Shown: one piece after another, positions 4,457-44,347 of the stretch | How positions within the stretch are numbered: position 1 is the first letter of the stretch | Layout of the letters: each line of letters begins with the position of its first letter | Made by a program: the position numbers and the translations under genes | NCBI RefSeq assembly: GCF_032121415.1 | Contig: NZ_CP135079.1 | Location: forward strand, 6,882,001-6,946,000 | Origin: Streptomyces parvus | Lineage (GTDB): Bacteria > Actinomycetota > Actinomycetes > Streptomycetales > Streptomycetaceae | Direction: 5' to 3' | Length of the DNA stretch: 64,000 bases | Notes under the pieces: generated by a model | Database searches by the model: none | The model's input: only the letters and a program-made list of their open reading frames with translations | Told to the model about the DNA's origin: nothing

Positions 4457-5275
4457 TCACTTGATGGAGCCGCCGGAGACCCCGGCGGCGATGTACTTCT
4501 GGGCGAGGACGAGAAGGATCGCCGCGGGTACGGCCGACAGCACGGCGGTGGCCATCACGGCGCCCCAGTCGCTGACATGGGCCCCGACGAACTGGTAGAT
4601 GCCGAGGGTGATCGGCCTGACGTCGTCGGTGGTGTTGAGAGTCAGGGCGAACATGAAGTCCGACCAGGCGAACAGGAACGTGAACAGGCCCGCGGTGATC
4701 AGCGCGTTGCGGCTCATCGGGAGCACGATGCGTACGAAGGCCGTGAACCGGTTCGCGCCGTCGACCAGCGCGGCCTCGACGACCTCACCCGGTATGGACA
4801 CCATGAACGCGCGCAGCAGCACGATCGAGAACGGCAGGCCCAGCGACGCATCGGCGAAGATCAGCCCCAGATAGGAGTTGACGAGGCCCAGTTCCGCGTA
4901 GGCGCTGTACAGCGCGTTGGCGATCACGATGCCCGGCACCATCTGGGTGATGAGCGTGGTGAAGACGATGCTCCGGCCGCCGCGCAGGCCGAACTGCGCG
5001 AGCCCGTACGCCGCGGGGGCGGCCAGCGCCAGACAGACCGCGACGGCGCCGAGTGCCACGATGAGGCTGGTCAGGAGGGACTTGCCCTGGCTGCTGATGG
5101 CCGCTTCGAAGTTGGACAGGCTGAGGGAGGTGGGGAACCACTCGGTCGCCGCGATGCTCGTGTCCGGCTGAAGCGCGGTGTTGAGCATCCAGTAGACCGG
5201 GAAGAGCAGCAAGCCGAGGATGAGCAGCGCGGCGGTGGTGTTCCAGGGGCCGCGCAGGGTCGAGGGCCGCTTCAT
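4457..5275 (-). CDS. sugar ABC transporter permease, MalG type
   Basis: About 272 residues from ATG 5275 (MKRPSTLRGPWNTT), with six predicted membrane helices and the cytoplasmic EAA loop EAALVDGANRFTAFVRIVLP that docks the ATPase. An in-frame GTG at 5293 overlaps the stop of the upstream permease as GTGA and could be the true coupled start; neither has a strong ribosome site. It forms the inner-membrane channel with the MalF-type protein. No ATPase gene is in the operon, so a shared ATPase such as MsiK is expected elsewhere. Confidence 0.9.
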   Translation of the reverse strand: MKRPSTLRGPWNTTAALLILGLLLFPVYWMLNTALQPDTSIAATEWFPTSLSLSNFEAAISSQGKSLLTSLIVALGAVAVCLALAAPAAYGLAQFGLRGGRSIVFTTLITQMVPGIVIANALYSAYAELGLVNSYLGLIFADASLGLPFSIVLLRAFMVSIPGEVVEAALVDGANRFTAFVRIVLPMSRNALITAGLFTFLFAWSDFMFALTLNTTDDVRPITLGIYQFVGAHVSDWGAVMATAVLSAVPAAILLVLAQKYIAAGVSGGSIK

Positions 5276-5289
5276 CGGTTTCACTTGGA

Positions 5290-6303
5290 TCACTTCCCCG
5301 TTCCGAAGTCGGCCCGGTTGGCCCGTAGGTAGAGCACGGCGAAGACCGCGCTGATGACGATGAGGACGTTGCCGACGACGGCACCTTGTCCGAAGTCGAG
5401 TTGGAGGAAGGAGAGTTGATAGGTGACGGTGCCCAGAGTCTGTGTGGAGTCGGCCGGGCCGCCCGAGGTCAGTGCCAGGATCAGGTCGAGGATCTTCACC
5501 GTGGACATGAAGCCGAGCACCAGTACGACGGTGATCACCGGTCGTAGCAGCGGCAATGTGACACTGCGGAACGTGCGCCACGGGCTGGCGCCGTCCAGGG
5601 ACGCCGCCTCGTAGAGCTCTCGTGGGATCTCCTGGAGCCCGCCGTAGAGGATCACCATGTTGAACGGGATGCCGATCCAGATGTTGACCATGATGGCCGA
5701 GAGCAGTGCCACGCTGGGACTGCTCAACCACGGCACGCCGCCGTCGGCCAGGCCGACGGCCTGGAGGGCCGTGTTGAGGATGCCGTGGTCCTGGTCGAGC
5801 ATGCGTCGCCAGACGACGGCGGATACCACCATGGGGACCAGCCAGGGCAGCAGCAGGACGGCCCGGATGGCGCCGGAGAGCCGGAAGCGGCGGGAGAAGA
5901 AGACGGCGAGCGCGAGGCCGATGGTGAACTGGCCGGTGAGCGAGCCGACAGTGAAGACCGCGGTGTGCCACAGCGAGTCGGCGAACAGTTCGTTGGAGAA
6001 CACCGCGCGCCAGTTGTCCAGCCCGGTGAAGGGGGCCTCGCCGGTGAAGTAGGTCGTCGGCGTGTACCGCTGGAAGCTCATGACGACGTTGCGCACCAGC
6101 GGGTAGCCGAAGAACAGCGCCATGTAGAGGAGCGCGGGCAGGACGAACAACCAGCGCAGCAGCGAATGCCCGTCGCGGCGTGGCTTCTTGAGAGTGGGGC
6201 GGGCGTTCTTCCCGGGCACGCCGGTGGAGGAGCTGGAGGAAGAGCCGGAGGGGGAGGGCGGCGCGGGGTCCAAGGACCCGGCCGGGGGGACGGCGGTGGT
6301 CAT
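5290..6303 (-). CDS. sugar ABC transporter permease, MalF type
   Basis: 337 residues: a Ser/Pro-rich cytoplasmic tail of about 45 residues (a run of SSSSSST), then six membrane helices and the EAA loop YEAASLDGASPWRTFRSVTL. Belongs to the carbohydrate CUT1 transporter class. It sits 7 nt behind the binding-protein gene and ends 14 nt before the ATG of its MalG partner. Confidence 0.91.
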   Translation of the reverse strand: MTTAVPPAGSLDPAPPSPSGSSSSSSTGVPGKNARPTLKKPRRDGHSLLRWLFVLPALLYMALFFGYPLVRNVVMSFQRYTPTTYFTGEAPFTGLDNWRAVFSNELFADSLWHTAVFTVGSLTGQFTIGLALAVFFSRRFRLSGAIRAVLLLPWLVPMVVSAVVWRRMLDQDHGILNTALQAVGLADGGVPWLSSPSVALLSAIMVNIWIGIPFNMVILYGGLQEIPRELYEAASLDGASPWRTFRSVTLPLLRPVITVVLVLGFMSTVKILDLILALTSGGPADSTQTLGTVTYQLSFLQLDFGQGAVVGNVLIVISAVFAVLYLRANRADFGTGK

Positions 6304-6310
6304 GGTGTCC

Positions 6311-7543
6311 TCACTTCTCCCCGGCCGATGCCTGTCGTTGCGCGTTCTTCAGAGCCGCTTCCGGCCCCGCCCTGCCGGTCAGCACCGACTGGAAGGCTCC
6401 GGCGAGCGCGTCGTTGACCACCGGCCAGCGGGTGCCGACCTTGGCGGTACGGGAGCGTGCCGTGGCCACCAGATCGACGAACGGGGCCAGTTCGGGGTGC
6501 TTCTCGGCGTACGAGGCCGCCGCGGACGCCCTGGTGGGCACGTTGTTCACCGACTCGCCCCAGGCGAGTTGGTTCCGCTCGCTGTTCAGGCAGGTGAGGA
6601 TCTTCCCCGCGTTCTTCTCGCGTCCGCTGTCGTCGCTCTTCGGAACGGCCATCACCGTGCCGCCGATCGGCGCGACCGCGTCCTGGCCGGCCCGGGGGAC
6701 GGGGATGGTGGCGACGGCCCAGTCGACCTTGTCCTGCGCGCTGAGCACCGGCACCTGCCACGGCCCGTTGATCATCATGGCCGCGCGGCCCGCGACGAAC
6801 TGGTCGTTCACATCCTGCTGGTTCCAGTTGACGACCGACTTCGACACGGATCCGTCACCCATCAGCTCCTTCCACAGCGTCAGGGCGGCTTCTCCCTTAC
6901 CGTTGTCCAGCCGCACCTCGTCGCCGCCGCCTGACCAGAAGAACGGCAGGAACTGGTAGACGCCGTCGGCGTTCGGGCTGGCGCTGAAGGCCATGCCGTA
7001 CGTGTTGCCCGACGTCAGCTTCTTCGCTGCCGCCCTCAACTCGGCCCAGGTAGTGGGCGGTTCGACGTCCGCTGCGCGCAACAGGTCTTTGTTGTAGAGC
7101 AGCGCGAGGGAGTTCACCGAACGGGCCACGGCGTACTGCGTCCCCTCGAAGCTTCCCAGCGAGGTGGCGCTGTCGGAGAATCCGGCGGTGTCCAGGCCCA
7201 CTTCCTCCAGGGGGCGCAGCCCTCCGGTCTCCGCGAACTGGGGAAGTTCCGAGCCGTCCAGTTCCAGGATGTCGGTGAGTGAGTCGGAGGACGCCATCCG
7301 CAGAGCCTTCGAGGCGACGGTGTCCGCAGGCACGCTGATCTGTTCGACCTTCAGGCCCAGCGGCCTCGCGCAGCGGTCGAGGAACTTCTGGTTCGCGTCG
7401 TGCTCGGCCGCGTCGGTGGCCGAGTTGAGCACCGTGACGGTGCCCGGGTCGGGGGTGGCGGCGCACCCCGTCAGACCCAGTGTCACAGGGACGAGCGCGG
7501 CTGTGGCGGCCGCGATCACCCGTATGCCTCTTGGGCGTCGCAT
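6311..7543 (-). CDS. sugar-binding lipoprotein of the ABC transporter
   Basis: About 410 residues, family 1 extracellular solute-binding protein. The chosen ATG at 7543 (MRRPRGIRV) has GGAGAG nine bases upstream; an in-frame ATG at 7564 overlaps the lacI stop but lacks a site. A signal peptide ends in the lipobox LTGC, so the mature protein is anchored outside the membrane. A middle segment of the type NGPWQVPVLSA and the WNQQDVNDQFVAGRAAMMING block are typical of CUT1 binding proteins. It captures the oligosaccharide for the two permeases encoded just downstream. Confidence 0.92.
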   Translation of the reverse strand: MRRPRGIRVIAAATAALVPVTLGLTGCAATPDPGTVTVLNSATDAAEHDANQKFLDRCARPLGLKVEQISVPADTVASKALRMASSDSLTDILELDGSELPQFAETGGLRPLEEVGLDTAGFSDSATSLGSFEGTQYAVARSVNSLALLYNKDLLRAADVEPPTTWAELRAAAKKLTSGNTYGMAFSASPNADGVYQFLPFFWSGGGDEVRLDNGKGEAALTLWKELMGDGSVSKSVVNWNQQDVNDQFVAGRAAMMINGPWQVPVLSAQDKVDWAVATIPVPRAGQDAVAPIGGTVMAVPKSDDSGREKNAGKILTCLNSERNQLAWGESVNNVPTRASAAASYAEKHPELAPFVDLVATARSRTAKVGTRWPVVNDALAGAFQSVLTGRAGPEAALKNAQRQASAGEK

Positions 7544-33578: not shown

Positions 33579-34832
33579 CTACGGACGCAGGACGGGTGTC
33601 CGCCTGCCCGTGTGCAGCGGCGTGCCGGTCGCGAGCTGCTCGGGGGCCAGGCCCAGCGACCGGGCGGCGGTGGCGCCCACATCGGCGAGAGTGTCCGCGT
33701 CCGGCAGCAGTTCGATGCCGTCCTCGCCGGGCCGGTGGATGAGCACCGGCACGTACTCCCGGGTGTGGTGGGCGTGGCCGATCGTCGGGTCGTTGCCGTG
33801 GTCCCCGGTGACGATCAGCCGGTCGCCGGGGGACGCCAGCAGTGCCACGAGCCCCGCGAGCCCCGAGTCGACCTGTTCCAGGAGCCGCGCGTACCGGGTG
33901 GCGTCCTGCTGGTGGCCCGCCAGATCGGTCTCCTGCACGTTCGCGACGACCAGGACGTCGCCGTCGGCGCGTACGGCCTCCAGCGTGTGGTCCAGGACGT
34001 CGGAGGTGGCGACGGCCGGGCGGCGGGCCGCCGCCTCGCACACGAGGATGTCGGCCGCCTTCCCGACCAGGGTGACCGGGATCCCGGCCCCCGCCGCCAG
34101 TTCGGGCAGTTGACGGGTGTGGTCCAGCGGGGCGCCCAGGTGCTGGACGCGCAGCCCGCCGTTGCGGTAGAAGCCGGTGGCCGGAGTGTCCAGGCCGACC
34201 GTCCCGCCCTCGCCGGGCCGTACGAAGCCGGGGAGCGGCCCGTCCGAGTGTCCGCCGACCGCGATCACCCGGGCGACAGGCGCGACCGCGCGTACGGTGC
34301 GGGCGATGGCGAGGATCCCGGTGTCCCCCTCGAAGGGGAGGTCCTCCAGCGAGCCGGAGGCGTTCCAGTTGATCCCGGGATCGGCCTCCAGGTTGTCGTG
34401 CACGAGGACCGTCCCGTCGACCAGCAGCAGGGGCCGGCCCTCCAGCCGCTCCGCCCGGTGCCCGGCCGCCGCGAGCGCATCGGCGACCTCGTCGAGGTGG
34501 TCGGCCAGGCGGGCGACGGAGACCCGGCTGAAGTCGGCCCCCATCATGGTCTGGTGCCCGGCGAAGGTGTCCGCGCCCGGGTAGCCGAGTGCGGCGCGGC
34601 CCGCCGCCACCGGGAGGCGGGTGCGGCGGTCCAGGTCCGGGTGGGGGTGGACCAGGCCCAGGCCCAGCGCCCCCAGCACCGGCAGGCGCAGCGGACGGCC
34701 CAGGGCGGTGCGTGCGTGGTCGAGGACGTGCCCGCAGGTGTCGGCGGCGAGGTCGCCGGGGCGCTGCACGCCCGCGTCGGGCATGGCGCCGATGCCGAAT
34801 CCGTCGATGACGACGATGACGGTCCTGGCCAT
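33579..34832 (-). CDS. yhfW: phosphopentomutase-like protein (YhfW type)
   Basis: 417 residues, alkaline-phosphatase superfamily. TVIVVIDGFGIGAMPDAG carries the first metal-binding Asp, GHQTMMGADFS the phosphoacceptor region (HQTMMG), and NVQETDLAGHQQD and IVTGDHGNDPT the remaining metal ligands, as in DeoB. Substrate is presumably a sugar phosphate but not ribose phosphate for certain. Last gene of the yhf-like operon, 10 nt behind yhfX; AAGGAG before ATG 34832. Confidence 0.88.
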   Translation of the reverse strand: MARTVIVVIDGFGIGAMPDAGVQRPGDLAADTCGHVLDHARTALGRPLRLPVLGALGLGLVHPHPDLDRRTRLPVAAGRAALGYPGADTFAGHQTMMGADFSRVSVARLADHLDEVADALAAAGHRAERLEGRPLLLVDGTVLVHDNLEADPGINWNASGSLEDLPFEGDTGILAIARTVRAVAPVARVIAVGGHSDGPLPGFVRPGEGGTVGLDTPATGFYRNGGLRVQHLGAPLDHTRQLPELAAGAGIPVTLVGKAADILVCEAAARRPAVATSDVLDHTLEAVRADGDVLVVANVQETDLAGHQQDATRYARLLEQVDSGLAGLVALLASPGDRLIVTGDHGNDPTIGHAHHTREYVPVLIHRPGEDGIELLPDADTLADVGATAARSLGLAPEQLATGTPLHTGRRTPVLRP

Positions 34833-34842
34833 GAGGTGCTCC

Positions 34843-36006
34843 TTACAGGGCTCGGCCCTGGGCGTCGTAGAGGCCGTTCAGGCGGGGGGTGCCGGAGGAG
34901 AGGCCGGAGACGACGGCGACGGTCGAGCGGGTGACGAAGATCTGGGTGCGGAAGGCGAGCAGCGCGGTGTCGCCGGCACGGACGTCGGTGCCGTCGGCAG
35001 GCGCGTCGAGCAGCCGGTAGTAGTCGATGTTCCGGGCGGGCGCGTCCTGTACACCGAGGCGGGCGCCGGTCCGGGGGAGGAGGGCGGTGCGGATGTGGGA
35101 ACGGGCGTAGAAGCCGCCGCCGAACAGGGCAGGGCGGCCGTCGTCGAGGGTGTGGGCGACCTCCGTGACGTAGACGTAGGCGGGCTTCTCGGGCTGGGTC
35201 GGGTCGAGGGCGTGCAGCGGGGTGGTGCCGGTGAGGGCGTGGCCCGGTTCGCCATGGGTGGCGCCCCGTTCGGCCAGCAGCGGGAGGGAGGCGGCCGCTG
35301 TGGCGCTGGGGGCGCTCAGCACCAGGTCGCGGTGGCCTCGGGCGGCCAGCACCTCGCGGGCCTTTACCAGCAGGTCGAACGTGGGGGTGGCCGTGGGCAG
35401 GCCCGTGGACGGATCGCACAGGACGCACGGGAAGGCGGTGACACCCGCGATCCGGACGGAGTCCAGGGCCTCGGCGGCATCGGCGAAGGCGTCCAGGTGC
35501 TCCAGCGGTACGCCGCCCTCCTGGCCGGGGTAGACGGTGCCCTCGGCGCCCTCGATCCGGATCAGGACGTCCTGGGTCCGGTCCGCCGCGCGGGCCGCGT
35601 CCGCCACGGCACGCGCGTTGGCCAGGTCGAAGACCGTGATGTGGTCGGGGCGGTGGGCCAGTAGCCCGGGCAGCGCGCGCCGCGGGACCTGGCTGAGGTG
35701 GCCGACGTTGCCGAGGAGCGCCCCTGCGCTGTGCAGGGTCCGGGCCTCGCCGACGTCGATGGCGGCGGCGCGGGGGATGTGGCGGGCGACGGACCGGATG
35801 AGTTCGGGGTTGCGGCCCAGCTGCTTGACGACGAACCAGAGCCCCACACCGACGCGTTCGGCCTCCCCGGCGAGCAGGGCCGCGTTCTCCTCGACGGCGT
35901 CGAGGTCCATGACGTAGGTGTCCGGCGGGATGTCCCCCCGGTCGTGCAGGCCGGCGGCGGCGTCGACGAGCCCGGGGTTGCGGTGGAGCACGGTGTCCAG
36001 AAACAC
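34843..36006 (-). CDS. yhfX: YhfX-type alanine-racemase-fold PLP enzyme
   Basis: 387 residues from GTG 36006 (AAGGA nine bases upstream, TGACCGTG junction with yhfS). Fold-type III: PLP-binding Lys61 in GLWFVVKQLGRN, followed by a barrel with HITVFDLANARAV and LSAPSATAAASLPLL, and a C-terminal beta domain. The typical racemase Tyr context is not evident, so reaction unknown. Second PLP enzyme of the operon after YhfS. Confidence 0.86.
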   Translation of the reverse strand: MFLDTVLHRNPGLVDAAAGLHDRGDIPPDTYVMDLDAVEENAALLAGEAERVGVGLWFVVKQLGRNPELIRSVARHIPRAAAIDVGEARTLHSAGALLGNVGHLSQVPRRALPGLLAHRPDHITVFDLANARAVADAARAADRTQDVLIRIEGAEGTVYPGQEGGVPLEHLDAFADAAEALDSVRIAGVTAFPCVLCDPSTGLPTATPTFDLLVKAREVLAARGHRDLVLSAPSATAAASLPLLAERGATHGEPGHALTGTTPLHALDPTQPEKPAYVYVTEVAHTLDDGRPALFGGGFYARSHIRTALLPRTGARLGVQDAPARNIDYYRLLDAPADGTDVRAGDTALLAFRTQIFVTRSTVAVVSGLSSGTPRLNGLYDAQGRAL

Positions 36007-36008
36007 GG

Positions 36009-37127
36009 TCAGCGGTCCTTCGGTTCGTTCAGGGCGGCGAGCGAGCGGCGCAGGATGTCGATCACGAGATCCGCGCCGGCCCGCATCGGATTGACGCGTA
36101 CGGTCCAGGCGGCCAGCTCCGGGGCGTCGTCCAGGGTGGAGCTGGACATCCGGTAGAAGAGCGGAGCGATTTCGTAGCGGGAGTTGGAGCCGACCGGGTA
36201 GGGCGCGGCGCCGAATCGCGCGGCCACGGCCGGGAGCCGCGTGGCGACGGGCCGGTCCAGCCGGACCAGCAGGCACCGGTCCTGCGCGTTGGCGATCCGC
36301 ACCTCCGCGACGCCCGCCACCTCCCCGGTCGCCAGCCGTTCGGCGACCTCGGCGCCCACCCGGGACTGGACGGCCCACACCACGGGGACGTGGGTGAGCG
36401 CCCGGAGGGCGTCCAGCGCCTGGTGGCCCTGCACCTGCCCGCCACCGGAGTAGTTGTCGCCGCGGACCCGGGCGACCAGGTCACGGGCGCCGGTGACGAG
36501 GCCGACCCCTTCGGGTCCGTGCAGCTTGAACAGGGAGAAGCACGAGGCGTCGGCGCCCATCTCGACACCGGCCGCCGGGGTGCGCAGCACGGCGTAGTTG
36601 TCGTCGACCACCGTGCGGACACCGGCTGCGCGGCAGGCGGCGATCACCTCGGCCGGTTCGTAGGAGTCCGCCAGCCGCTGCCGGGTGTGCTGGACGTAGG
36701 CCCACCGGAACCGGCCCGAGGCCAGTGCCTCCCGCAGCGCATCCAGGTCGTTGAAGTCGGCTTCCACCATCCGTACGCCGAGACCGCGCAGCGTGACCTC
36801 CGTACTGCGGTACACCGGGGCCCGGTGGATCAGCAGCTCCTCGCCCGGCCGCAGCGCCCCCGTGAGCGCGGCCCGGATCGCGCCGGTCCCCGCGCCCTGG
36901 ACGAAGGCGGCGTCCTCGGCACCGAAGAATTCCGCAAGAACAGCCTCTACCCGGGCCGTGGTGCGCGGTCTGCCGAGGCCGGGGACGACCCCCGCGTCGG
37001 CCGAGAAGAGCTGATCGCCCTCGAAGTGCGCGGCGGTGGCCTCCAGCAGCCGGAACTGCCGGGCGACCGCGTCCTCCAGGCCGACCGTCGCCAGCGGGAA
37101 GGTCTCGGGCAGTACAGGGGGTTTCAC
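36009..37127 (-). CDS. yhfS: YhfS-type PLP-dependent aminotransferase-like enzyme
   Basis: 372 residues from GTG 37127. Fold-type I: QGAGTGAIRAAL phosphate loop, VVDDNYAVLR with the PLP Asp, Lys201 in SCFSLFKLHGPEG, and DNYSGGGQVQGHQALDALRA after it. Substrate unknown. Starts one base after the PHP stop, ends two bases before yhfX. Confidence 0.87.
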   Translation of the reverse strand: MKPPVLPETFPLATVGLEDAVARQFRLLEATAAHFEGDQLFSADAGVVPGLGRPRTTARVEAVLAEFFGAEDAAFVQGAGTGAIRAALTGALRPGEELLIHRAPVYRSTEVTLRGLGVRMVEADFNDLDALREALASGRFRWAYVQHTRQRLADSYEPAEVIAACRAAGVRTVVDDNYAVLRTPAAGVEMGADASCFSLFKLHGPEGVGLVTGARDLVARVRGDNYSGGGQVQGHQALDALRALTHVPVVWAVQSRVGAEVAERLATGEVAGVAEVRIANAQDRCLLVRLDRPVATRLPAVAARFGAAPYPVGSNSRYEIAPLFYRMSSSTLDDAPELAAWTVRVNPMRAGADLVIDILRRSLAALNEPKDR

Positions 37128-37128
37128 G

Positions 37129-38085
37129 TCAGTTCTCCTCCACGTCGGCGCCGGTCAGGAAGCGCAGTGGGTTGCGGCGGGTCAGCAGGTCGATGAGCTC
37201 CTCGTCTGCGCCCGCCGCCCGGAACCTCGGCAGGAAGTCCTCGAAGAGGTGCCCGTATCCCTGGCCGCCCTCTCCGCGCAGATAGCCGTGGCGCGAGATG
37301 TCGCAGCTGAGCAGGGCCCGGTCGCCGTGGCCCGCTTCTACCAGGGCCGACAGCAGCCGCAACCGGGTCTGGTCGCTCTGGTAGGACTCCTTGCCGACCG
37401 TGTCGAAGGCGACGTGCGCGCCCCGCTCGGCCAGCTCCCGGTGCACCCCGGGATCGTCCAGCAGGTCCTGGTGGCCGATGCAGATCCGCTCGGCGGGCAG
37501 GCCCTCCGCCATGAGGAGATCCAGCTGGGCGAGGCCGCCCCGGCCCAGCTGGGCGTGGGTGGCCAACGGCAGCCCGGTGGCCAGCGCGGCCCGCCCGGCG
37601 GCCCGCAGCACCTTCGCCTCGGCAGGCGACGGTAGGTCGCCGTGGCTGCCGATCTCGCCGAGGACACCGGGGCGGATGCCGGTGGCGGCTATGCCGTCCT
37701 CGATCTCCCTTACGAGGACGCCGGTGAGCTGTGCCACGTCGGCCGTGTCTACCTCCGGGGTGTGGAACGGCTCGTAGTACCAGCCGGTCGCGGCGACGAC
37801 GGGCACGCCCGCCTCCCGGGAGATCCTGGCCAGCGCACGGACATCGCGGCCCATGCCCCGGCAGGTCAGCTCGACGACCAGGGAGAGCCCGAACCGCTGC
37901 CGCAGGCCGCCCAGTTCGCCGGTCACGGCCGCCGCGTGGCGTTCTGCGTCCAGGACGGCCGCCCCGTCCCCCTGCCGGTCGAGGTCCAGGACGAGGTGCT
38001 CGTGGGGGAGGACGGGGCCGCGTACCGCGTCGGCGGCGAGCTCTCCGGTGACGGTGCGCAGGATGCGGGGTGGAGGGTGGTCCAT
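37129..38085 (-). CDS. php: phosphotriesterase homology protein (PHP/YhfV)
   Basis: 318 residues from ATG 38085 (GAAGGA upstream). Amidohydrolase fold: the metal pair HEH in VLPHEHLVLDLD, VVAATGWYYEPFHTPE, a GEIGSHG strand, THAQLGRGG, IGHQD and the final Asp in SCDISRHG. E. coli PHP is of unknown physiological substrate although it resembles lactonase/phosphotriesterase enzymes. Sits between yhfT and yhfS. Confidence 0.88.
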   Translation of the reverse strand: MDHPPPRILRTVTGELAADAVRGPVLPHEHLVLDLDRQGDGAAVLDAERHAAAVTGELGGLRQRFGLSLVVELTCRGMGRDVRALARISREAGVPVVAATGWYYEPFHTPEVDTADVAQLTGVLVREIEDGIAATGIRPGVLGEIGSHGDLPSPAEAKVLRAAGRAALATGLPLATHAQLGRGGLAQLDLLMAEGLPAERICIGHQDLLDDPGVHRELAERGAHVAFDTVGKESYQSDQTRLRLLSALVEAGHGDRALLSCDISRHGYLRGEGGQGYGHLFEDFLPRFRAAGADEELIDLLTRRNPLRFLTGADVEEN

Positions 38086-38122
38086 GGCGGGTTCCTTCTC
38101 CGGTACGTGCCGGTGCCGGGGG

Positions 38123-39457
38123 TCAGCCCTTGACCGGGGTGAACAGGTCGAGCCAGTACAGGAGGTTGAGGAGGACACCGCCGATGATGACCGCGGCCGG
38201 GGCGGCGGCCATCTTCACGACGGGCCGTCCCATCGCCTCGTTGAACAGGTACAGCCCGCCGACGATGAGGATGCCGAGCCCGCCGCCCATGGCGTTCGCC
38301 GCCATAAGCGAACCGAAGAGGATCGCCAGCTGGAGGGTGTCGCCGATGGCGCTGCGCAGATGCTCCGACGAGTCCCGCACACTGGGCAGCTTGCCCAGCA
38401 CCTTGCCGATCCAGGACAGGGCGAGCACCTCGACGGCGAAGACGAGCGCGCCCACGACGGCGGCCAGGAACGGGTTCGGCATCAGGTAGCCGATCGGGTA
38501 TACCAGCGTGAAACCGGCGATGCCGTACGCACCCGAGGCCAGCGCGGTCGTCGCGATCAGCGGGACGAAGCCGAACACCCGGTAGAAGTCGACCTGGGCG
38601 GCTTCGGCGTACTGCCCCTTGGCGATCAGGAAGCTCGTCGCCTCACCGCCGCCGAACACATGCATCTGGGCGAGGACGCAGACCCCGGCGCCGAGGACCA
38701 TGAACAGCGGCAGGTAGCGCCGCAGTCGGGCCGCGCTGGCGCTGAAGAGCGACGCCATCGGATCGTCCGCCGGCACCTCCTCGACCACCCCGGCCGCCCG
38801 GTCCGCCCGGCGCTGCCGGAGGTCCTTGGCGACCGCGAGGCCGATGAGCATCAGCACGCCGACGGCCATGGCCAGCGCCCCGGCGAACATGTTCGGCCAG
38901 AGCTTCATCGTCAGGACGACGAGGGCCACCTCGATCACGCCCGCCACGGCGCCCCGCAGCCGGCCGAACTGCTTGGTGATGGCGAGGACCGGGAACAGCG
39001 TGAAGAGGAAGAGGATCGGCGTGGACATCTGCTGCATCGCGGTCAGGAAGTCGACCGGCAGGTCGTGCGCGATGTCGTTGGCGCCGTTCAGACCGAAGAC
39101 GACCACCGATCCCCAGGCCCCGCCGAGGATCGGCGCGAGCCACTTCTTCGGGGACAGCAGGCCGAGGATGTCGGTGGGGAGGAAGAGCAGCCAGGGGTTG
39201 AGGACCCCGGTGGACAGGGCCATCGGGGCACCGAGGCCGAAGATGAACCCGGCGGAGAGACCGAAGGACACGGCGGTGGTCGCGCTACGGGTGGTGCGTC
39301 CCTGGATGAAGTCCAGCAGGAAGGGGCGGACCCCGTCGTTGAAGACGGCCAGGGCCATGTGCGCGATGAAGGCGGTCAGCGCACAGAGGGCTATGACGGT
39401 CAGCTGCTGGGCGAGCGTGAAGTCGAAGCCGCTGCCTGCGGCGAGGATGGTGCTCAC
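38123..39457 (-). CDS. yhfT: YhfT-family polytopic membrane protein
   Basis: 444 residues from GTG 39457 (AAGGAGTGACTC before it). About 11-12 membrane helices, an N-terminal LAVFNDGVRPFLLDFIQGRT loop, FGLGAPMALSTGVLNPW and FNEAMGRPVVKMAA near the end. YhfT is the presumed transporter of the operon; substrate unknown. It is preceded by the small YhfU gene as in enterobacteria. Confidence 0.88.
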   Translation of the reverse strand: MSTILAAGSGFDFTLAQQLTVIALCALTAFIAHMALAVFNDGVRPFLLDFIQGRTTRSATTAVSFGLSAGFIFGLGAPMALSTGVLNPWLLFLPTDILGLLSPKKWLAPILGGAWGSVVVFGLNGANDIAHDLPVDFLTAMQQMSTPILFLFTLFPVLAITKQFGRLRGAVAGVIEVALVVLTMKLWPNMFAGALAMAVGVLMLIGLAVAKDLRQRRADRAAGVVEEVPADDPMASLFSASAARLRRYLPLFMVLGAGVCVLAQMHVFGGGEATSFLIAKGQYAEAAQVDFYRVFGFVPLIATTALASGAYGIAGFTLVYPIGYLMPNPFLAAVVGALVFAVEVLALSWIGKVLGKLPSVRDSSEHLRSAIGDTLQLAILFGSLMAANAMGGGLGILIVGGLYLFNEAMGRPVVKMAAAPAAVIIGGVLLNLLYWLDLFTPVKG

Positions 39458-39498
39458 GAGTCACTCCTTGGTGCCCGGTACGGCGATCCGGCGCCGGG

Positions 39499-39855
39499 TC
39501 AGCCGCGGTCCGCGATGGCGCGGGCCATGAGGGGGGCGATGGTGTCGATCTGGTCCATCGAGAAGCCGAAGACCTTCTTGCCGTCGGCGAGCAGGGCGTC
39601 GATCTCCGCGGCGTCCGGGACACCGCGGCCGAAGGTGTGGCAGACGGCGCTGCCCATGAGGCCGACGAGGACCCCCAGAGAGGCGCCGGCACCGGTGTGG
39701 CAGGTGCCGAGGTAGTAGTCGGCCTGGCCCGCACGGAACTTCATCGCGGCATCGATGTCGCTGGAGGCGGCGACGTCGAGCGAGTCGATCCCGAGGGCGT
39801 CGATGGCCCGGGTGACCTCGACCTTGCCGACTCCGCCGGTGAGGATCTTCGTCAT
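39499..39855 (-). CDS. yhfU: YhfU-family (DUF2620) small protein
   Basis: 118 residues. MTKILTGGVGKVEVTRAIDA, YYLGTCHTGAGASLGVLVGL and AVCHTFGRGVPD are the conserved blocks of the family; two Cys-His pairs. Soluble, Rossmann-like start reminiscent of PTS EIIB folds, possibly a regulatory or transport partner of YhfT. AAGGA before ATG. Confidence 0.86.
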   Translation of the reverse strand: MTKILTGGVGKVEVTRAIDALGIDSLDVAASSDIDAAMKFRAGQADYYLGTCHTGAGASLGVLVGLMGSAVCHTFGRGVPDAAEIDALLADGKKVFGFSMDQIDTIAPLMARAIADRG

Positions 39856-39923
39856 TGCTGTCCTTCTCTCTGTGCTGTGCGGTGCGGTGAGTTGCTGGGC
39901 CCGGGGGCGCGGGGGCCGTGGGG

Positions 39924-40313
39924 TCAGGTGCCGGGTGCGGCTGACGACGACTGCTGGATCAGGACGGCCAGATGCATGCCGAGGAAGTTGATCTCCGACT
40001 CGGGAAGTACCGGTCCGAGCGTCCGTTCGGCCCGCTCGGAGATCGCCCGCGCCCGTGCTACGGCCTCGGGGTGGGCGGCCAGCTCGGCTGCGACCTGCTC
40101 GTCGGTGGAGAACTCCTGGATCGGCTCCCCGCGGAGGAGACGGCCGAGCGCCATCGTGAGATGGCTGGTGAGCATGCCCGCCGTGGCCTCGGTGACGGTG
40201 TTGCCCTCGTCCTCCAGCGCGGTCAGCTCGGCGGCCACGAAGTCGATGACCTCAGGTGTGGCCTGGCCGCCCTCACGGAAGAGCCGAAGCCGTAGAGCGA
40301 GCTGTTCGTCCAT
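39924..40313 (-). CDS. yhfY: PRD-domain protein (YhfY type)
   Basis: 129 residues from ATG 40313 with AGGAGG seven bases upstream. A single PRD-like helical domain: LRLRLFREGGQATPEVIDFV, MLTSHLTMALGRLLRGEPIQ with the conserved His, and PESEINFLGMHLAVL with the second His. PRDs are normally phosphorylated by the PTS; here the domain is free-standing. First structural gene of the yhf-like operon and directly behind the element at 40330-40347. Confidence 0.82.
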   Translation of the reverse strand: MDEQLALRLRLFREGGQATPEVIDFVAAELTALEDEGNTVTEATAGMLTSHLTMALGRLLRGEPIQEFSTDEQVAAELAAHPEAVARARAISERAERTLGPVLPESEINFLGMHLAVLIQQSSSAAPGT

Positions 40314-40329
40314 GGTGATCCTCCTAATA

Positions 40330-40347
40330 AACAATAACCAGGATTTT
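40330..40347 (-). promoter_or_regulatory. yhf operator/promoter, copy at yhfY
   Basis: On the minus strand AAAATCCTGGTTATTGTT, matching 15 of 18 bases of the element before yhfZ. The TATTGT at its 3' end fits a -10 box seven bases before the ribosome site. Probably bound by the YhfZ regulator. Confidence 0.6.
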
Positions 40348-40421
40348 GTATTTTCAGGCCGTGCGACGCTCCCGCCGGTGCGGGCCGCTTGCCGGGCGTG
40401 GATCCCGTATCGGCCCTCCGG

Positions 40422-41360
40422 TCAGTACGAGGGCGTGCGTTCGCCCCGCAGCACCTCGCTCTGCATCCGCGTCACCACCGAAAGGTCGAGCGCCTCGCGC
40501 ACCGCGTCGAGAGCCTTCGCGCCGTCCTTCCGGCCGATCACCGCCGCGCTGGAGTTCCGCAGGGCCAGCTCGCGGGTGACCTCGTCCCCCAGCGGGAGGA
40601 CGTCGACCCCGATGCCCAGCCGCTCGCGCGCCTCGTCCAGGTTCCATACGGTCGCGTCCACCTCGTGACGGGCGAAGAGGTCGTGCAACTGCATGTACGA
40701 GACCTCCCGCCACTCGATGTCGCGCCGCCCGGCGAACACGCGCTCCACCAGCATGCGCAGGTCTTCCGACGTGTGGTCGACCGCCACCCGCAGCCCCGCT
40801 GCCTCCAGGTCGACGCCGTGCCGCACCAGCATCCCGTGCGCGCCGACGTAGGTGGCGGGACCGAGGTCGGCCACCAGCTCCACCGGATGCTCGGCGATCA
40901 GCTGGTCCGCGGCGAACCGCGACAGCACCACCAGATCCACCTTCCCTTCCAGCAGTGCCGCTGTCCGGGCTCCGGCGCCGCGCATGAAGGTGACGGCGAA
41001 CGGTGCCCCGGCCTGCTCGAACGCTCCGCGCAGGCCGGTGGCCAGCCCCTCGTAGCGGCGGGAGTACGGCAGCGGCATCGCCGCGAGCAGCGTGCCGAGT
41101 CCGGACAGCCGCCACAGGACCGCCCGGTCCGAGCGCACGAGGAACGTGCCCAGGTGGCCCCGGGCGGTGGTGGTGATCGCTCCCGACTCCTCCAGCAGCT
41201 GGAGCGCGGCCTGGACGGTGCCGTTGCCGCATCCCAGCTCCTCCGCGAAGTCCCGTACGCGGGGCAGGCGGGTGTCCGGCTCGCGGTTGAGCAGAAGGAC
41301 GGCCAGCTGCCGGGCGGCCAGGCCGTTGCGGGTGAGGAAGCGGGAGTCGAAGTCGTCCAC
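40422..41360 (-). CDS. yhfZ: GntR-like regulator (YhfZ type)
   Basis: 312 residues from GTG 41360. Winged helix in the first 80 residues (RQLAVLLLNREPDTRLPRVR, GNGTVQAALQLLEESGAI) and a C-terminal PBP-like ligand domain (LPYSRRYEGLATGLRGAFEQ, KVDLVVLSRFAADQ, THVG-like loop), the YhfZ architecture. Presumed repressor of the operon it heads. The -10 box lies only eight bases before the GTG and no ribosome site exists, so the message is probably leaderless. Confidence 0.87.
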   Translation of the reverse strand: MDDFDSRFLTRNGLAARQLAVLLLNREPDTRLPRVRDFAEELGCGNGTVQAALQLLEESGAITTTARGHLGTFLVRSDRAVLWRLSGLGTLLAAMPLPYSRRYEGLATGLRGAFEQAGAPFAVTFMRGAGARTAALLEGKVDLVVLSRFAADQLIAEHPVELVADLGPATYVGAHGMLVRHGVDLEAAGLRVAVDHTSEDLRMLVERVFAGRRDIEWREVSYMQLHDLFARHEVDATVWNLDEARERLGIGVDVLPLGDEVTRELALRNSSAAVIGRKDGAKALDAVREALDLSVVTRMQSEVLRGERTPSY

Positions 41361-41366
41361 GCCTCG

Positions 41367-41384
41367 AACAGTAAACAGGATTCT
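41367..41384 (-). promoter_or_regulatory. yhf operator/promoter, copy at yhfZ
   Basis: On the minus strand AGAATCCTGTTTACTGTT. TACTGT at 41374-41369 fits a -10 box. Shared with the copy before yhfY, so YhfZ likely controls both promoters. Confidence 0.6.
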
Positions 41385-41968
41385 GGATACTGACAAGGGT
41401 CCTGCGGAACCGGGAGCCCGGCGTCCTTGCGTACGGCGTGGCGCCCGCCCCCTTTCGGGCCGGGCGCCCTCGTTTACGGACTCATCGGCGGGTCCGACGA
41501 CGGCTGCTCGCCCGGCACCCTTGTCTCCTATGCTGTCGCCGCGCTCGCCCCCCGTTTCGCGCCGCGGGGGACAACCCGGCCGGAGTCGACCAGCAGCCCG
41601 CTGGTCGACTCCGACGCCTTCGGCCAGCCCGGCGCTCTTCGCCCGTGCGCCGAGCCGCAGGAGCCGAAGAATGGATACGAGCAGCAGCGGCTTTGTCTGC
41701 GACGGCCGTCCGTGACACCTCTCATCGCGAACATCTACGTGCAATCCCCGGTGGGGCAGCGGGTCCTTCGGCACCGGCCGGCCATGGCGTGATCGGATTA
41801 GCCCGACCATCATGTGGAGATCCTGCAAAGTCCGCTGGTAACTTGAGAGCCGCGATCCGTGAGGTCGGGGAAGTCAGGGTTTGCGACCGCCATACGGTAG
41901 TTGGGTCAAGCCCTCATACGTCTGTACTGCCTGCCTGCGTGCATAGGAGTACGGGGAGAGGGCCGATC
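41385..41968. other. intergenic between yhfZ and the PBP gene, with a large hairpin
   Basis: 580 bases between divergent genes with no protein-like frame. The notable structure is the perfect 14-bp inverted repeat at 41581-41613 (separate entry). A ribosome site GGGGAGAGG for the PBP gene is at its right end. Confidence 0.4.
41581..41613. repeat. perfect 14-bp inverted repeat, 5-nt loop
   Basis: CGGAGTCGACCAGC (41581-41594), loop AGCCC, GCTGGTCGACTCCG (41600-41613). It stands 200 bases from either gene and has no T-run. Terminator, protein site or remnant of a mobile element are all possible. Confidence 0.6.
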
Positions 41969-44347
41969 GTGAGCCAGGCAGGGCAGGGAGCGCACGCTCA
42001 GGGAGGCGAGGGAGAGCCCTCCGAAGCGAGTCCCTCGGCACACAGACCGGCACCCGGACAGCGGCTCATGCTCGACGAGACGATGCAACTCCGCGTAACC
42101 GGAGGTGGCATACCCACCACCCCCCCTGAAGAGCCGTCCATATCCGGCTGGGGGCGGCGTGAGATACCCGGCGATATAGCCGACACACCTTCCGCTCCGG
42201 GGAAAATCGCACGGACCGCACCGACCGGCGACTCCCCAGCGTCCACCTCCGGATCCCGCGTGTCTCGCCGCGCCGACGCCAAGCCCGCCGTGTTCGGCCA
42301 GCCGGTTACCCGGCACCGGCGCAAGCCGCCCAAGCCGCCGCCCGCCGCCCGCCTCGCTGCCACGGTCGCCTCCACCACCGGTGCCCTCGTGGCCGTACTC
42401 GGCCCGCGGCTTCGCCGAGTGCGGCCGCAGTATCCCCGGCCCGGACTCACTGGCTGGAAGCGCTGGGTGCCCACCTGGCGGCAAACCGGGGGCTCGGTCC
42501 TCGCCTCGTTCGGGCTGAGCGTCCTGACCTTGACGGTCGCCTACGCCGTCACCGACATTCCGGACGACCTCAACTCCTTCGCCACCCAGCAGGACACCGT
42601 CTACTTCTGGGCCGACGGCACTCCCATGGCCCGCGCTGGCTGGGTGCAACGGCAGGAGATGGAGCTAGACAACGTGCCCGAGGACGTGCGTTGGGCAGTG
42701 CTCGCCGCCGAGAACGAGAGCTTCTACAGTGACCCCGGCATCTCGGCCAAGGGTCTCACCCGCGCTCTCCTGCGAACTGTCGGACAGGGCAGCACCGAGG
42801 GCGGCTCGACTATCACCCAGCAGTACGTCAAGAACGCCTACCTGAGCCAGGAAAGGACCTACAGCCGAAAGTTCACCGAGGGCATCATGGCTCTCAAGCT
42901 CGACAACAAGATGAGCAAGGACGAGATCCTGGAGGGATACCTCAACACCAGTTGGTTCGGCCGCGGCACCTATGGCATCCAGCGTGCAGCCCAGGCGTAC
43001 TACGGCAAGGACGTAAGCGAACTCAACGCCAGCGAGGGCGCCTTCCTCGCCACCCTCCTCAAGGGCGCCGGACTGTACGATCCGACGCTCGGCCCGGCCA
43101 ACCGTGCCCGCGCGGAAGAGCGGTGGCGGTGGACGCTCGACCGGATGGTGAAGATCGGCAGGATGTCGCCGGAGGAGCGCGCCGGCTACCGGACCTTCCC
43201 GAAGGTGTTGGAAAGCAACCCGCTCTACAGCACCGGCGAGCAGAGCGACTACCTGGTGGAACTCGCTACCCGGTACGCCAAGAAGAGGGCCCGCATCTCC
43301 GACAAGGACTTCGACCGCGGGGGCTACCAGATCTACACGACGTTCGACAAGCAGCGCGTGGACCAGCTCACCCGGGCCGTCAGCAGCGCCCGCAAAAAGG
43401 CCCGTGAGGACAACCCGAAGGCGGCGAAACACGTCCACTACGGCGCCGCCTCCATCGCTGTCGACGGGCGGATCCTGGCCATCCACGGCGGCCCCGACCA
43501 CCGCAAGCAGGGCTACAACGAGTCCAACGCGACCACCGTGCCCGCTGGCTCGGCGTTCCAGCCGTTCGTCTACGCTGCCGCTCTGGAGCACGGCGTGCGC
43601 AAGCGCAGGGACAGCGCCCCCGAGCCGGTGACGGGCGCGACGGTGTACGACGGCGAGGACGAGGTGCCGGTCACCACGCCGGAAGGGCCCTACTGGGACC
43701 GCAGCGGTCGCAAGGTCGCCGCGAAGAACGATGGCGGGCGATCCTACGGGCGGATCACTCTGCACCGGGCCCTCGCGTCATCCGTCAACACCACCTTCAT
43801 GCAGCTCGGTATGGACACCGGACTGGACAAGGTCCGCGACACCGCCCGGGCCGCCGGACTGCTGACCTCCAGCCTCGGCGCCCAGGTGCCCGCACTGGCC
43901 GCCGGAAGCTCTAGACCCAGCGCCATCCGTATGGCAAGCGGCTACACCACCTTCGCCGCCGAGGGCCGGCACACCGAGCCGTACGCCATCCTCAAGGTCA
44001 CCCGCAACGGCCACGAGGTCCCCACGGACGTCCCGGTCGCGCGCGCGGCCGTGGACGCCGACACCGCCGCTGAGGTGCAGTCCGCCCTGACGGACGCCTT
44101 CCGCACCGCCTACCCGGAGACCGCCGCAAAGGCGGACGGCGAGGTCGCGGGAAAGAGGGGCACCACCGAGGACGACACCGCCGCCTGGTATGTCGGCACG
44201 GAGAAGAAGGTGTCCACCGCAGTCGTCGTCTACCGCATCGACCTGGCCAAGAGCTTGGAGCCCCTACCGTTGGAGGGACTGGGCGGCACGATCAGCGACA
44301 GCGTTCCTTACGGCATCTGGTCGGAAGCCCTGAGCCCGCTCGGCTGA
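41969..44347 (+). CDS. class A PBP with degenerate transpeptidase motifs
   Basis: 792 residues from GTG 41969. A disordered cytoplasmic tail of about 170 residues, one membrane helix (173-197), then a GT51 glycosyltransferase with catalytic Glu248 in AAENESFYSDPG, and EGGSTITQQYVKNAYL, so it should polymerise lipid II outside the membrane. The penicillin-binding domain follows, but the SxxK motif reads SAFQ (Ser528, Gln531) and KTG reads KRG (729-731), while SVN (605-607) is kept. Without the Lys general base, crosslinking activity is doubtful. Followed 72 bases later by a deacetylase gene. Confidence 0.88.
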   Translation: MSQAGQGAHAQGGEGEPSEASPSAHRPAPGQRLMLDETMQLRVTGGGIPTTPPEEPSISGWGRREIPGDIADTPSAPGKIARTAPTGDSPASTSGSRVSRRADAKPAVFGQPVTRHRRKPPKPPPAARLAATVASTTGALVAVLGPRLRRVRPQYPRPGLTGWKRWVPTWRQTGGSVLASFGLSVLTLTVAYAVTDIPDDLNSFATQQDTVYFWADGTPMARAGWVQRQEMELDNVPEDVRWAVLAAENESFYSDPGISAKGLTRALLRTVGQGSTEGGSTITQQYVKNAYLSQERTYSRKFTEGIMALKLDNKMSKDEILEGYLNTSWFGRGTYGIQRAAQAYYGKDVSELNASEGAFLATLLKGAGLYDPTLGPANRARAEERWRWTLDRMVKIGRMSPEERAGYRTFPKVLESNPLYSTGEQSDYLVELATRYAKKRARISDKDFDRGGYQIYTTFDKQRVDQLTRAVSSARKKAREDNPKAAKHVHYGAASIAVDGRILAIHGGPDHRKQGYNESNATTVPAGSAFQPFVYAAALEHGVRKRRDSAPEPVTGATVYDGEDEVPVTTPEGPYWDRSGRKVAAKNDGGRSYGRITLHRALASSVNTTFMQLGMDTGLDKVRDTARAAGLLTSSLGAQVPALAAGSSRPSAIRMASGYTTFAAEGRHTEPYAILKVTRNGHEVPTDVPVARAAVDADTAAEVQSALTDAFRTAYPETAAKADGEVAGKRGTTEDDTAAWYVGTEKKVSTAVVVYRIDLAKSLEPLPLEGLGGTISDSVPYGIWSEALSPLG

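Follow-up and report, generated by a model that had tools for sequence, protein, structure and literature searches.

Positions 33579-41360 of a 64,000-nucleotide stretch of Streptomyces parvus DNA (contig NZ_CP135079.1; the whole stretch is called the window below) raise the question of what the yhf gene set of Escherichia coli does in an actinobacterium. On the minus strand, this region contains eight genes that represent all eight Yhf/PHP families in a single near-gapless row, as assigned with Pfam and NCBIfam. We consider it somewhat better than an even bet that they form an inducible operon, repressed by YhfZ, for the import and degradation of an amino-containing, amide- or ester-linked compound.

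The row starts with yhfZ (40422..41360), whose start is most likely the GTG at 41360 by our reading of the sequence. It is followed by yhfY (39924..40313), yhfU (DUF2620; 39499..39855), yhfT (38123..39457), php (37129..38085), yhfS (36009..37127), yhfX (34843..36012) and yhfW (33579..34832), all on the minus strand. From yhfU onward the intergenic gaps are 41, 37, 1, -4 and 10 bases, the TTG start of yhfX overlapping the stop codon of yhfS by 4 bases; the larger gaps are those between yhfZ and yhfY and between yhfY and yhfU. The order is Z-Y-U-T-php-S-X-W, as against Z-Y-X-W-php-U-T-S in E. coli. The preliminary description of this DNA had matched the eight genes one to one to the E. coli yhf set in another order, and the Pfam, NCBIfam and PDB matches bear this out. 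Comparison with solved structures covered six window proteins (YhfX, YhfS, PHP, YhfZ, YhfW and YhfU), and for four of them the top PDB matches are Yhf or PHP entries: 4kbx (YhfX), 4j8l (YhfS), 4lef/1bf6 (PHP) and 2ozz (YhfZ).

A contig scan with YhfT gave 193 relatives. The best 80 of these 193 loci were fetched: 74 from Streptomyces, 5 from Actinomadura and one from a Bacillota metagenome-assembled genome (MAG). All eight genes in the window order are present in 59/80 fetched loci, and since the identical eight-gene row recurs in this way, it is beyond chance. Among the remaining 21 loci, seven are cut by a contig end on the side of the missing genes (L008, L009, L012, L013, L017, L031, L083), and 14 lack some genes despite available DNA; one locus, L056, lacks yhfZ and, its 3' end being cut, was counted for this gene only.

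YhfZ, the proposed repressor, contains a GntR-type helix-turn-helix domain and a YhfZ_C domain. It matches PF14503 and PF14502, scores 345.2 bits with NF041241 (YhfZ_full), over the equivalog cut-off of 260, and has 2ozz as its nearest solved structure. Eleven Streptomyces sequences (the window and ten loci) show strong conservation over the ~35 bases that immediately precede the yhfZ start. Further upstream, the DNA of these sequences is mostly unalignable, with L025 and L072 alike. The conserved part contains a palindromic element, candidate operator 1 (41367..41396, minus strand), that we read as a -35 box TTGTCA and a -10 box TACTGT separated by 17 bp; the element therefore overlaps a plausible promoter of yhfZ. 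The window element (41396-41367) is a single match in the window, with 0 expected. It contains a palindrome, the core of which reads CCAGGATCCTGG in L038, L039, L059 and L061. Candidate operator 2 (40331..40349, minus strand) lies upstream of yhfY and has 2 mismatches to the 19-mer consensus of the element.

This consensus was searched with at most 2 mismatches on both strands of the window and the fetched loci, 3.08 Mb in all. It occurs before yhfZ in 60/64 loci and before yhfY in 46/75, with 24 other hits in the 3.08 Mb. All 24 are opposite-strand hits, of which 23 overlap plus-strand sites and one, in L055, is at the yhfZ/yhfY start. The element is present at yhfZ and/or yhfY in 63/64 loci that contain yhfZ (the exception is L066), as against 2/12 loci that lack yhfZ and have at least 500 bp upstream (Fisher 7e-10, related genomes being treated as independent rows). 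Judging from these sequences, the conserved palindrome is probably the YhfZ operator, and YhfZ probably represses itself and the downstream genes.

A candidate palindrome was also found in Bacillota. The pattern CAATRTACA-N6-TGTAYATTG, with at most 4/18 mismatches, occurs close to the start of yhfZ in 10 of 11 loci, L110-L120 with the exception of L112. This consensus was drawn from the same loci on which it was scored, some of them close relatives, and therefore it is the random-window control that carries the weight: 1.2% of random windows match at the same stringency. A merged consensus at no more than 4 mismatches covers 63/64 actinobacterial and 10/11 Bacillota sites, a count for which no control was run. 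As for the strict actinobacterial form, the distant loci contain its exact core in L116 only. Further upstream of yhfZ in the window, at 41583-41613, there is by eye a perfect 13-base inverted repeat with a 5-base loop, in a region where the upstream DNA of other Streptomyces is unalignable.

The four candidate enzymes belong to distinct families. PHP matches PF02126, the phosphotriesterase family, and scores 208.3 bits with the NCBIfam model PRK09875 (phosphotriesterase-related protein), below its cut-off of 486; it carries the HEH, GEIG, TH, GH and D positions, to which we ascribe a metal role. The name PHP stands for phosphotriesterase homology protein, and the earlier gloss as a PHP amidohydrolase is corrected accordingly. 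YhfS is a fold type I pyridoxal phosphate (PLP) enzyme (PF22475, YhfS-like_C), in which the lysine at residue 201, in an FKL motif, would be the PLP lysine. YhfX is a PLP enzyme of fold type III (PF21279, YhfX-like_C, and PF01168), and the corresponding residue would be Lys63, in a VKQ motif. It was rejected as an alanine racemase: BLASTP gives no similarity to E. coli Alr, and only the Ala_racemase_N domain is common. YhfW is a phosphomutase-like metalloenzyme that scores 450 bits with PRK12383, over the cut-off of 254. Its solved-structure matches are phosphopentomutase entries, with no YhfW chain listed. The preliminary description had allowed for the possibility that proteins of the row were closer to true DeoB or the like, and this comparison was run for YhfW. 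Both DeoB models score below their cut-offs (TIGR01696, 128.4 bits against 341.2; PRK05362, 138.9 against 256), and pairwise BLASTP gives 228 bits to E. coli YhfW as against 97 to DeoB. YhfW as a true DeoB was thus rejected.

YhfU (DUF2620, PF10941) is RpiB-like by fold and, more weakly, by profile. The sequence of the window protein has no match in PDB. Its AlphaFold2 model has a predicted local distance difference test (pLDDT) score of 95, and in a structural search with this model the first 20 rows, with Z 11.9-8.0 over 107-112 residues, are RpiB, LacAB and one uronate ketol-isomerase; the next row, which is unrelated, has Z 7.0. The best Foldseek row is RpiB (E 1e-3, TM-score 0.64). The profile match of YhfU to RpiB has P 1.3e-4 when all YhfU are used and 8.6e-4 for a reduced, mostly distant set, cysteine falling on cysteine; adding E. 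coli RpiB and relaxing the alignment setting gives P 0.0042. In the controls, the score of 31.8 compares with 29.9 for the best of 200 column shuffles, 13.9 for a reversed alignment and at most 21.1 for five other yhf families. E. coli YhfU scores 13.6 bits with Pfam LacAB_rpiB (cut-off 24.7). The SFCGS family, which occurs in a different type of operon, matches the YhfU profile with P 4e-7 to 1e-5 over 104-111 columns and the RpiB profile with P 1e-4 to 7e-4, and one SFCGS protein scores 24.2 bits with the same Pfam model. The RpiB link of YhfU rests on the fold and this Pfam chain together with the profile match. Cys52, in a CxTGxG motif, is present in all 95 aligned YhfU, mostly from Streptomyces. 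The N-terminal DH motif of RpiB is missing from YhfU in the alignment with RpiB; therefore we call YhfU RpiB-like, not an RpiB, and claim no isomerase activity.

Not all loci retain the complete set. Ten Streptomyces loci, all with flanking DNA at either end, contain Y-U-T-PHP-S-X and lack both yhfZ and yhfW. The genomes of these ten loci contain no YhfW over the family cut-off, weak partial matches being seen in five; the absence of yhfZ refers to the fetched loci. In 8 of the ten, each of the six kept genes gives, by alignment coverage alone, a single-frame alignment that spans at least 86% of its length. Broken or split alignments were seen for yhfX of L069 and yhfT of L086, as could result from sequencing error, insertion or decay. 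In a YhfT tree made by a quick method, with long branches flagged, the state lacking both genes requires 5 changes within Streptomyces and 6 across all rows. At least three of these are forced by well-supported branches, and thus the joint absence of yhfW and yhfZ probably arose more than once, the changes being counted irrespective of their direction. A stricter formulation, in which the two genes are always lost together from a strict six-gene core, was rejected on recount (exceptions L020, L056, L059 and L066), and a joint loss on at least three occasions was judged too strong a claim.

Other loci have an additional gene. Fourteen distant loci (L108-L121) were considered; L121 is a sub-threshold hit without a yhf row. 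An amidase-like ninth gene is present in 8 of the 14, and the window operon lacks it. Three of the eight were scanned with PF01425 (cut-off 27): those of L114 (41 bits) and L117 (32 bits) pass, and that of L108 (21.3) falls short. In L114 (Bacillota) a glucosamine-6-phosphate isomerase-type gene (PF01182; 2635-3390, minus strand) directly follows yhfW with a slight overlap, a possible hint at an amino-sugar phosphate.

The preliminary description also took the presence of the whole set in Streptomyces as a sign of a transferable unit, and here the evidence is divided. The patchy distribution of YhfT agrees with it. YhfT is present in 6/61 related genomes, all six among 37 of the same genus, and in 2/396 Actinomycetota, the genome of the window being included in both counts. 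It was also found in 13/398 Bacillota at E <= 0.001 (12 of these pass the cut-off; the count includes the centre genome G061, picked for having the operon) and in 6/65 Actinomadura, five of the six known beforehand. Against transfer, ffh was found in the fetched DNA of 40/80 loci, some of them cut short, and this suggests a mostly fixed place in Streptomyces. The 64 loci that extend 3 kb or more to either side show 41 neighbour pairs, and in the top three an ffh-type cluster lies downstream (gene calling was rough, and the identity of the cluster is our reading). The window copy has no ffh neighbour and lies ~220 kb from the end of the 7.14-Mb contig. These observations suggest that the yhf site is mostly fixed in Streptomyces, with other sites in some clades, including that of the window. 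Divergent from the operon, positions 41438-44347 on the plus strand encode a class A penicillin-binding protein (PF00912, PF00905), whose true start is probably well inside the open reading frame (ORF).

The window order is the commonest in the sample, and that of E. coli is one of several. The window order was found in 7 of 13 distant loci, namely on a Cetobacterium plasmid, with the amidase gene between yhfT and php, and in six Bacillota. The order is Z-Y-U-T-S-P-X-W in L119 and the same without PHP in L120, Z-S-X-W-(Y)-U-T-P in L117 and L118, whose YhfY was detected only by BLASTP on ORFs, U-S-T-Z-Y-P-X-W in L112, and Z-Y-P-U-T-X-W, without yhfS, in Vibrio (L109). Upstream of the latter row, on a Vibrio halioticoli plasmid, look-alikes of chitobiose-type IIB, IIC and IIA genes of the phosphotransferase system (PTS) were noted by eye (5109-7110, plus strand). 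In L119 (Bacillota) an aminoglycoside-phosphotransferase-type kinase gene (PF01636; 6260-7270, plus strand) immediately precedes yhfZ.

The middle part of the operon can be compared with a second type of operon, named here after its SFCGS protein. In three annotated records (Klebsiella, Enterococcus, Bartonella) the row is PRD-SFCGS-DUF4312-DUF4311-DUF4310, then an amidohydrolase and DgaE. The Enterococcus row has PTS IIC, hypothetical and MupG-family genes interposed and a sugar kinase after it, whereas the other two records have an annotated KDGP aldolase. The PRD protein of these operons is homologous to YhfY (profile P 2.1e-7). DgaE matches the YhfS profile with P 4.9e-8 over the shared fold-I core, a match at a level expected of many fold-I enzymes. 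The membrane proteins and metallohydrolases of the two operon types have no detectable profile similarity, and PHP was accordingly rejected as a homologue of the SFCGS-operon amidohydrolase. On a plasmid of Bartonella sp. HY761 (L160/L176) the SFCGS operon is followed by genes for a BglG-type antiterminator and ptsP. The same 56-kb plasmid carries type VI secretion genes.

How YhfY, YhfU and YhfT act together can be read in several ways. YhfY is a small protein with a PRD domain, the weakest of the eight calls (PF00874, 24.9 bits with a cut-off of 23; E. coli YhfY itself scores 20.2); its histidine (residue 52 of P0002, 51 counted from the ATG) is present in 88/88 aligned homologues, mostly from Streptomyces. 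One reading, which we consider unlikely, is that the three proteins form a PTS-like permease: phosphate would pass from enzyme I (EI)/HPr to the histidine of YhfY, then to the cysteine of YhfU and on to the substrate during import by YhfT, and the enzymes would act on a phosphorylated compound. The invariance of both residues agrees with this, as does the ptsP gene next to the Bartonella SFCGS operon. In Bacillota, EI (TIGR01417) is over the cut-off in 11/12 genomes with yhf as against 36/116 without it (Fisher 6e-5, kinship ignored). However, Actinomadura show no such enrichment (5/6 with yhf, 54/59 without); across the 29 genomes with yhf, EI is over the cut-off in 27, the misses being G061, a MAG with short contigs, and the Actinomadura genome G894, whose completeness is not given. 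Taken together, the EI counts lend the permease weak support. To our knowledge, none of the known EIIB types is RpiB-like, and YhfT has no profile similarity by hhalign to EIIC-GAT, DUF4310 or DUF4311. The homologous PRD and SFCGS pair sits in operons with DgaE, which, according to the available text of PMC9529869, converts D-glucosaminate-6-phosphate to KDG-6-phosphate, the substrate being supplied by DgaABCD. However, the Enterococcus row has its own PTS IIC and a following sugar kinase, from which the phosphate could come. The SFCGS rows hint that the yhf and SFCGS trios may both be phosphate-linked uptake systems; a PTS link of the yhf operon is possible, not established. It is a tentative and rather doubtful extension that YhfY-YhfU-YhfT and PRD-SFCGS-DUF4312-DUF4311-DUF4310 are two branches of an unrecognised phosphorelay permease class, in which the places of the usual EIIA and EIIB are taken by a PRD protein and an RpiB-like cysteine protein beside a membrane protein of unknown fold.

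A minor but real possibility is that YhfU is a soluble pathway enzyme, an isomerase or an enzyme of related Cys52 chemistry, with YhfT an ordinary secondary carrier and YhfY a regulator only. The RpiB fold and the aligned CxTGxG loop agree with an enzyme, whereas the missing DH motif does not. Moreover, yhfU and yhfT are adjacent in E. coli and in 12/13 distant loci while other genes shuffle (yhfS is between them in L112), and a kept adjacency suits a shared job. It is also conceivable, and in our view improbable, that the operon serves biosynthesis or signalling, producing or altering a compound that is then exported. No sequence feature tells in which direction YhfT or the PLP reactions run. 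However, the operon combines a metallohydrolase with a GntR-type regulator whose own promoter carries a site, and many distant loci have an amidase-like gene; such a combination is typical of catabolic operons.

The import-and-degrade operon remains the reading that we prefer. In the scheme that we infer, YhfZ would repress its own promoter and a second promoter before yhfY through the palindromic operators, and a ligand bound by its C-terminal domain would release it. YhfT (PF10797, 511 bits), a polytopic membrane protein, would then import an amino-containing compound aided by YhfY, a small PRD protein, and by the RpiB-like YhfU. PHP, together with the amidase-like enzyme in many distant loci, would cleave an amide, ester or lactone bond of this compound, and YhfX and YhfS may process the freed amino part. 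The phosphomutase-like YhfW, missing in some lineages, may finish or feed the route. The catabolic direction, the order of the steps and the substrate class are likewise predicted. The preliminary description had proposed a catabolic pathway for an imported amino compound. The probable operator, the trio of PRD, RpiB-like and membrane proteins and the amidase-like ninth gene elsewhere fit this proposal, whereas the part of it concerning import depends on an assumed carrier role of YhfT.

Several observations count against this scheme. The AlphaFold2 model of YhfT is poor (pLDDT 66, from 47 alignment rows, all but one actinobacterial). Its best structural row, VcINDY, has Z 6.2, within the stated noise of the tool, and Foldseek gave no row at E <= 0.001. 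YhfT as a known transporter was rejected for want of a convincing structural or profile match, and no conclusion is drawn from these absences; because the model is poor, the carrier role is an assumption. Four of the 64 actinobacterial loci with yhfZ have no plus-strand site at yhfZ itself, and no convincing operator was found upstream of the yhfZ genes of E. coli, Vibrio, Cetobacterium and Bacillota L112, in the last of which yhfZ is not at the head of the row. Gene sets also deviate at loci with available DNA: yhfS, yhfX and yhfW are missing from L066 (Z-Y-U-T-PHP, no operator match), yhfZ and yhfY from L020 (U-T-PHP-S-X-W), only yhfW from L059, which keeps yhfZ, yhfS from L109 and php from L120. 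Genes of these types could also serve in biosynthesis or export. Finally, we know of no activity, ligand or phenotype on record for the yhf operon.

No function for the yhf operon was found in the accessible parts of the open-licence literature, outside which most subscription journals lie. In the portions available, yhfZ is named in a cluster of candidate attenuators corresponding to bacterial interspersed mosaic elements (PMC2965389), YhfZ is listed in a knockout resistance screen (PMC12147183), the yhf operon appears in riboswitch-prediction tables (PMC4448311), and a DUF2620 protein appears in a table on a Lactobacillus rhamnosus clade (PMC7513527). New here are the RpiB-likeness of YhfU, the candidate YhfZ operator, the Streptomyces loci lacking yhfW and yhfZ, and the amidase-like ninth gene. 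The probable operator makes the inducer findable by a DNA-binding or reporter screen, and the naturally reduced gene sets hint at which pathway steps are dispensable. If true, the phosphorelay reading would mean a new type of sugar-phosphotransferase permease.

Four known systems may be set beside the operon. The E. coli K-12 row yhfS-yhfT-yhfU-php-yhfW-yhfX-yhfY-yhfZ (NC_000913.3, 3504935-3512344) has the same eight families on one strand in ~8 kb, YhfT being 43% and YhfW 38% identical to the window proteins. However, the gene order is different, and E. coli yhfZ is not preceded by a convincing operator. YhfW is 28% identical to the phosphopentomutase DeoB and shares with it the DHGxDP and HTRE motifs and a threonine or serine aligned with the DeoB threonine, which in DeoB is phosphorylated. 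It differs in being shorter by one residue ahead of the GH motif and in a DNLEAD-type stretch, which is missing in E. coli DeoB. The YhfU model resembles the RpiB/LacAB isomerases (Z 11.9, 109 of 118 residues aligned, root mean square deviation 2.4), with the cysteine loop in register; in RpiB the cysteine of the CGTGxG loop is the catalytic base. YhfU, however, is 31 residues shorter than E. coli RpiB and has no DH motif. Finally, the SFCGS operon also combines in one row small PRD and RpiB-like proteins, both homologous to those of yhf, with membrane proteins and two enzymes, a metallohydrolase and a PLP enzyme of fold type I. None of the eight yhf genes corresponds to its DUF4312 or KDGP aldolase, its annotation shows nothing like YhfX or YhfW, and the Enterococcus row adds PTS IIC and MupG-family genes. 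The RpiB-like YhfU ties these two uncharacterised operons together, and therefore solving one would help with the other.

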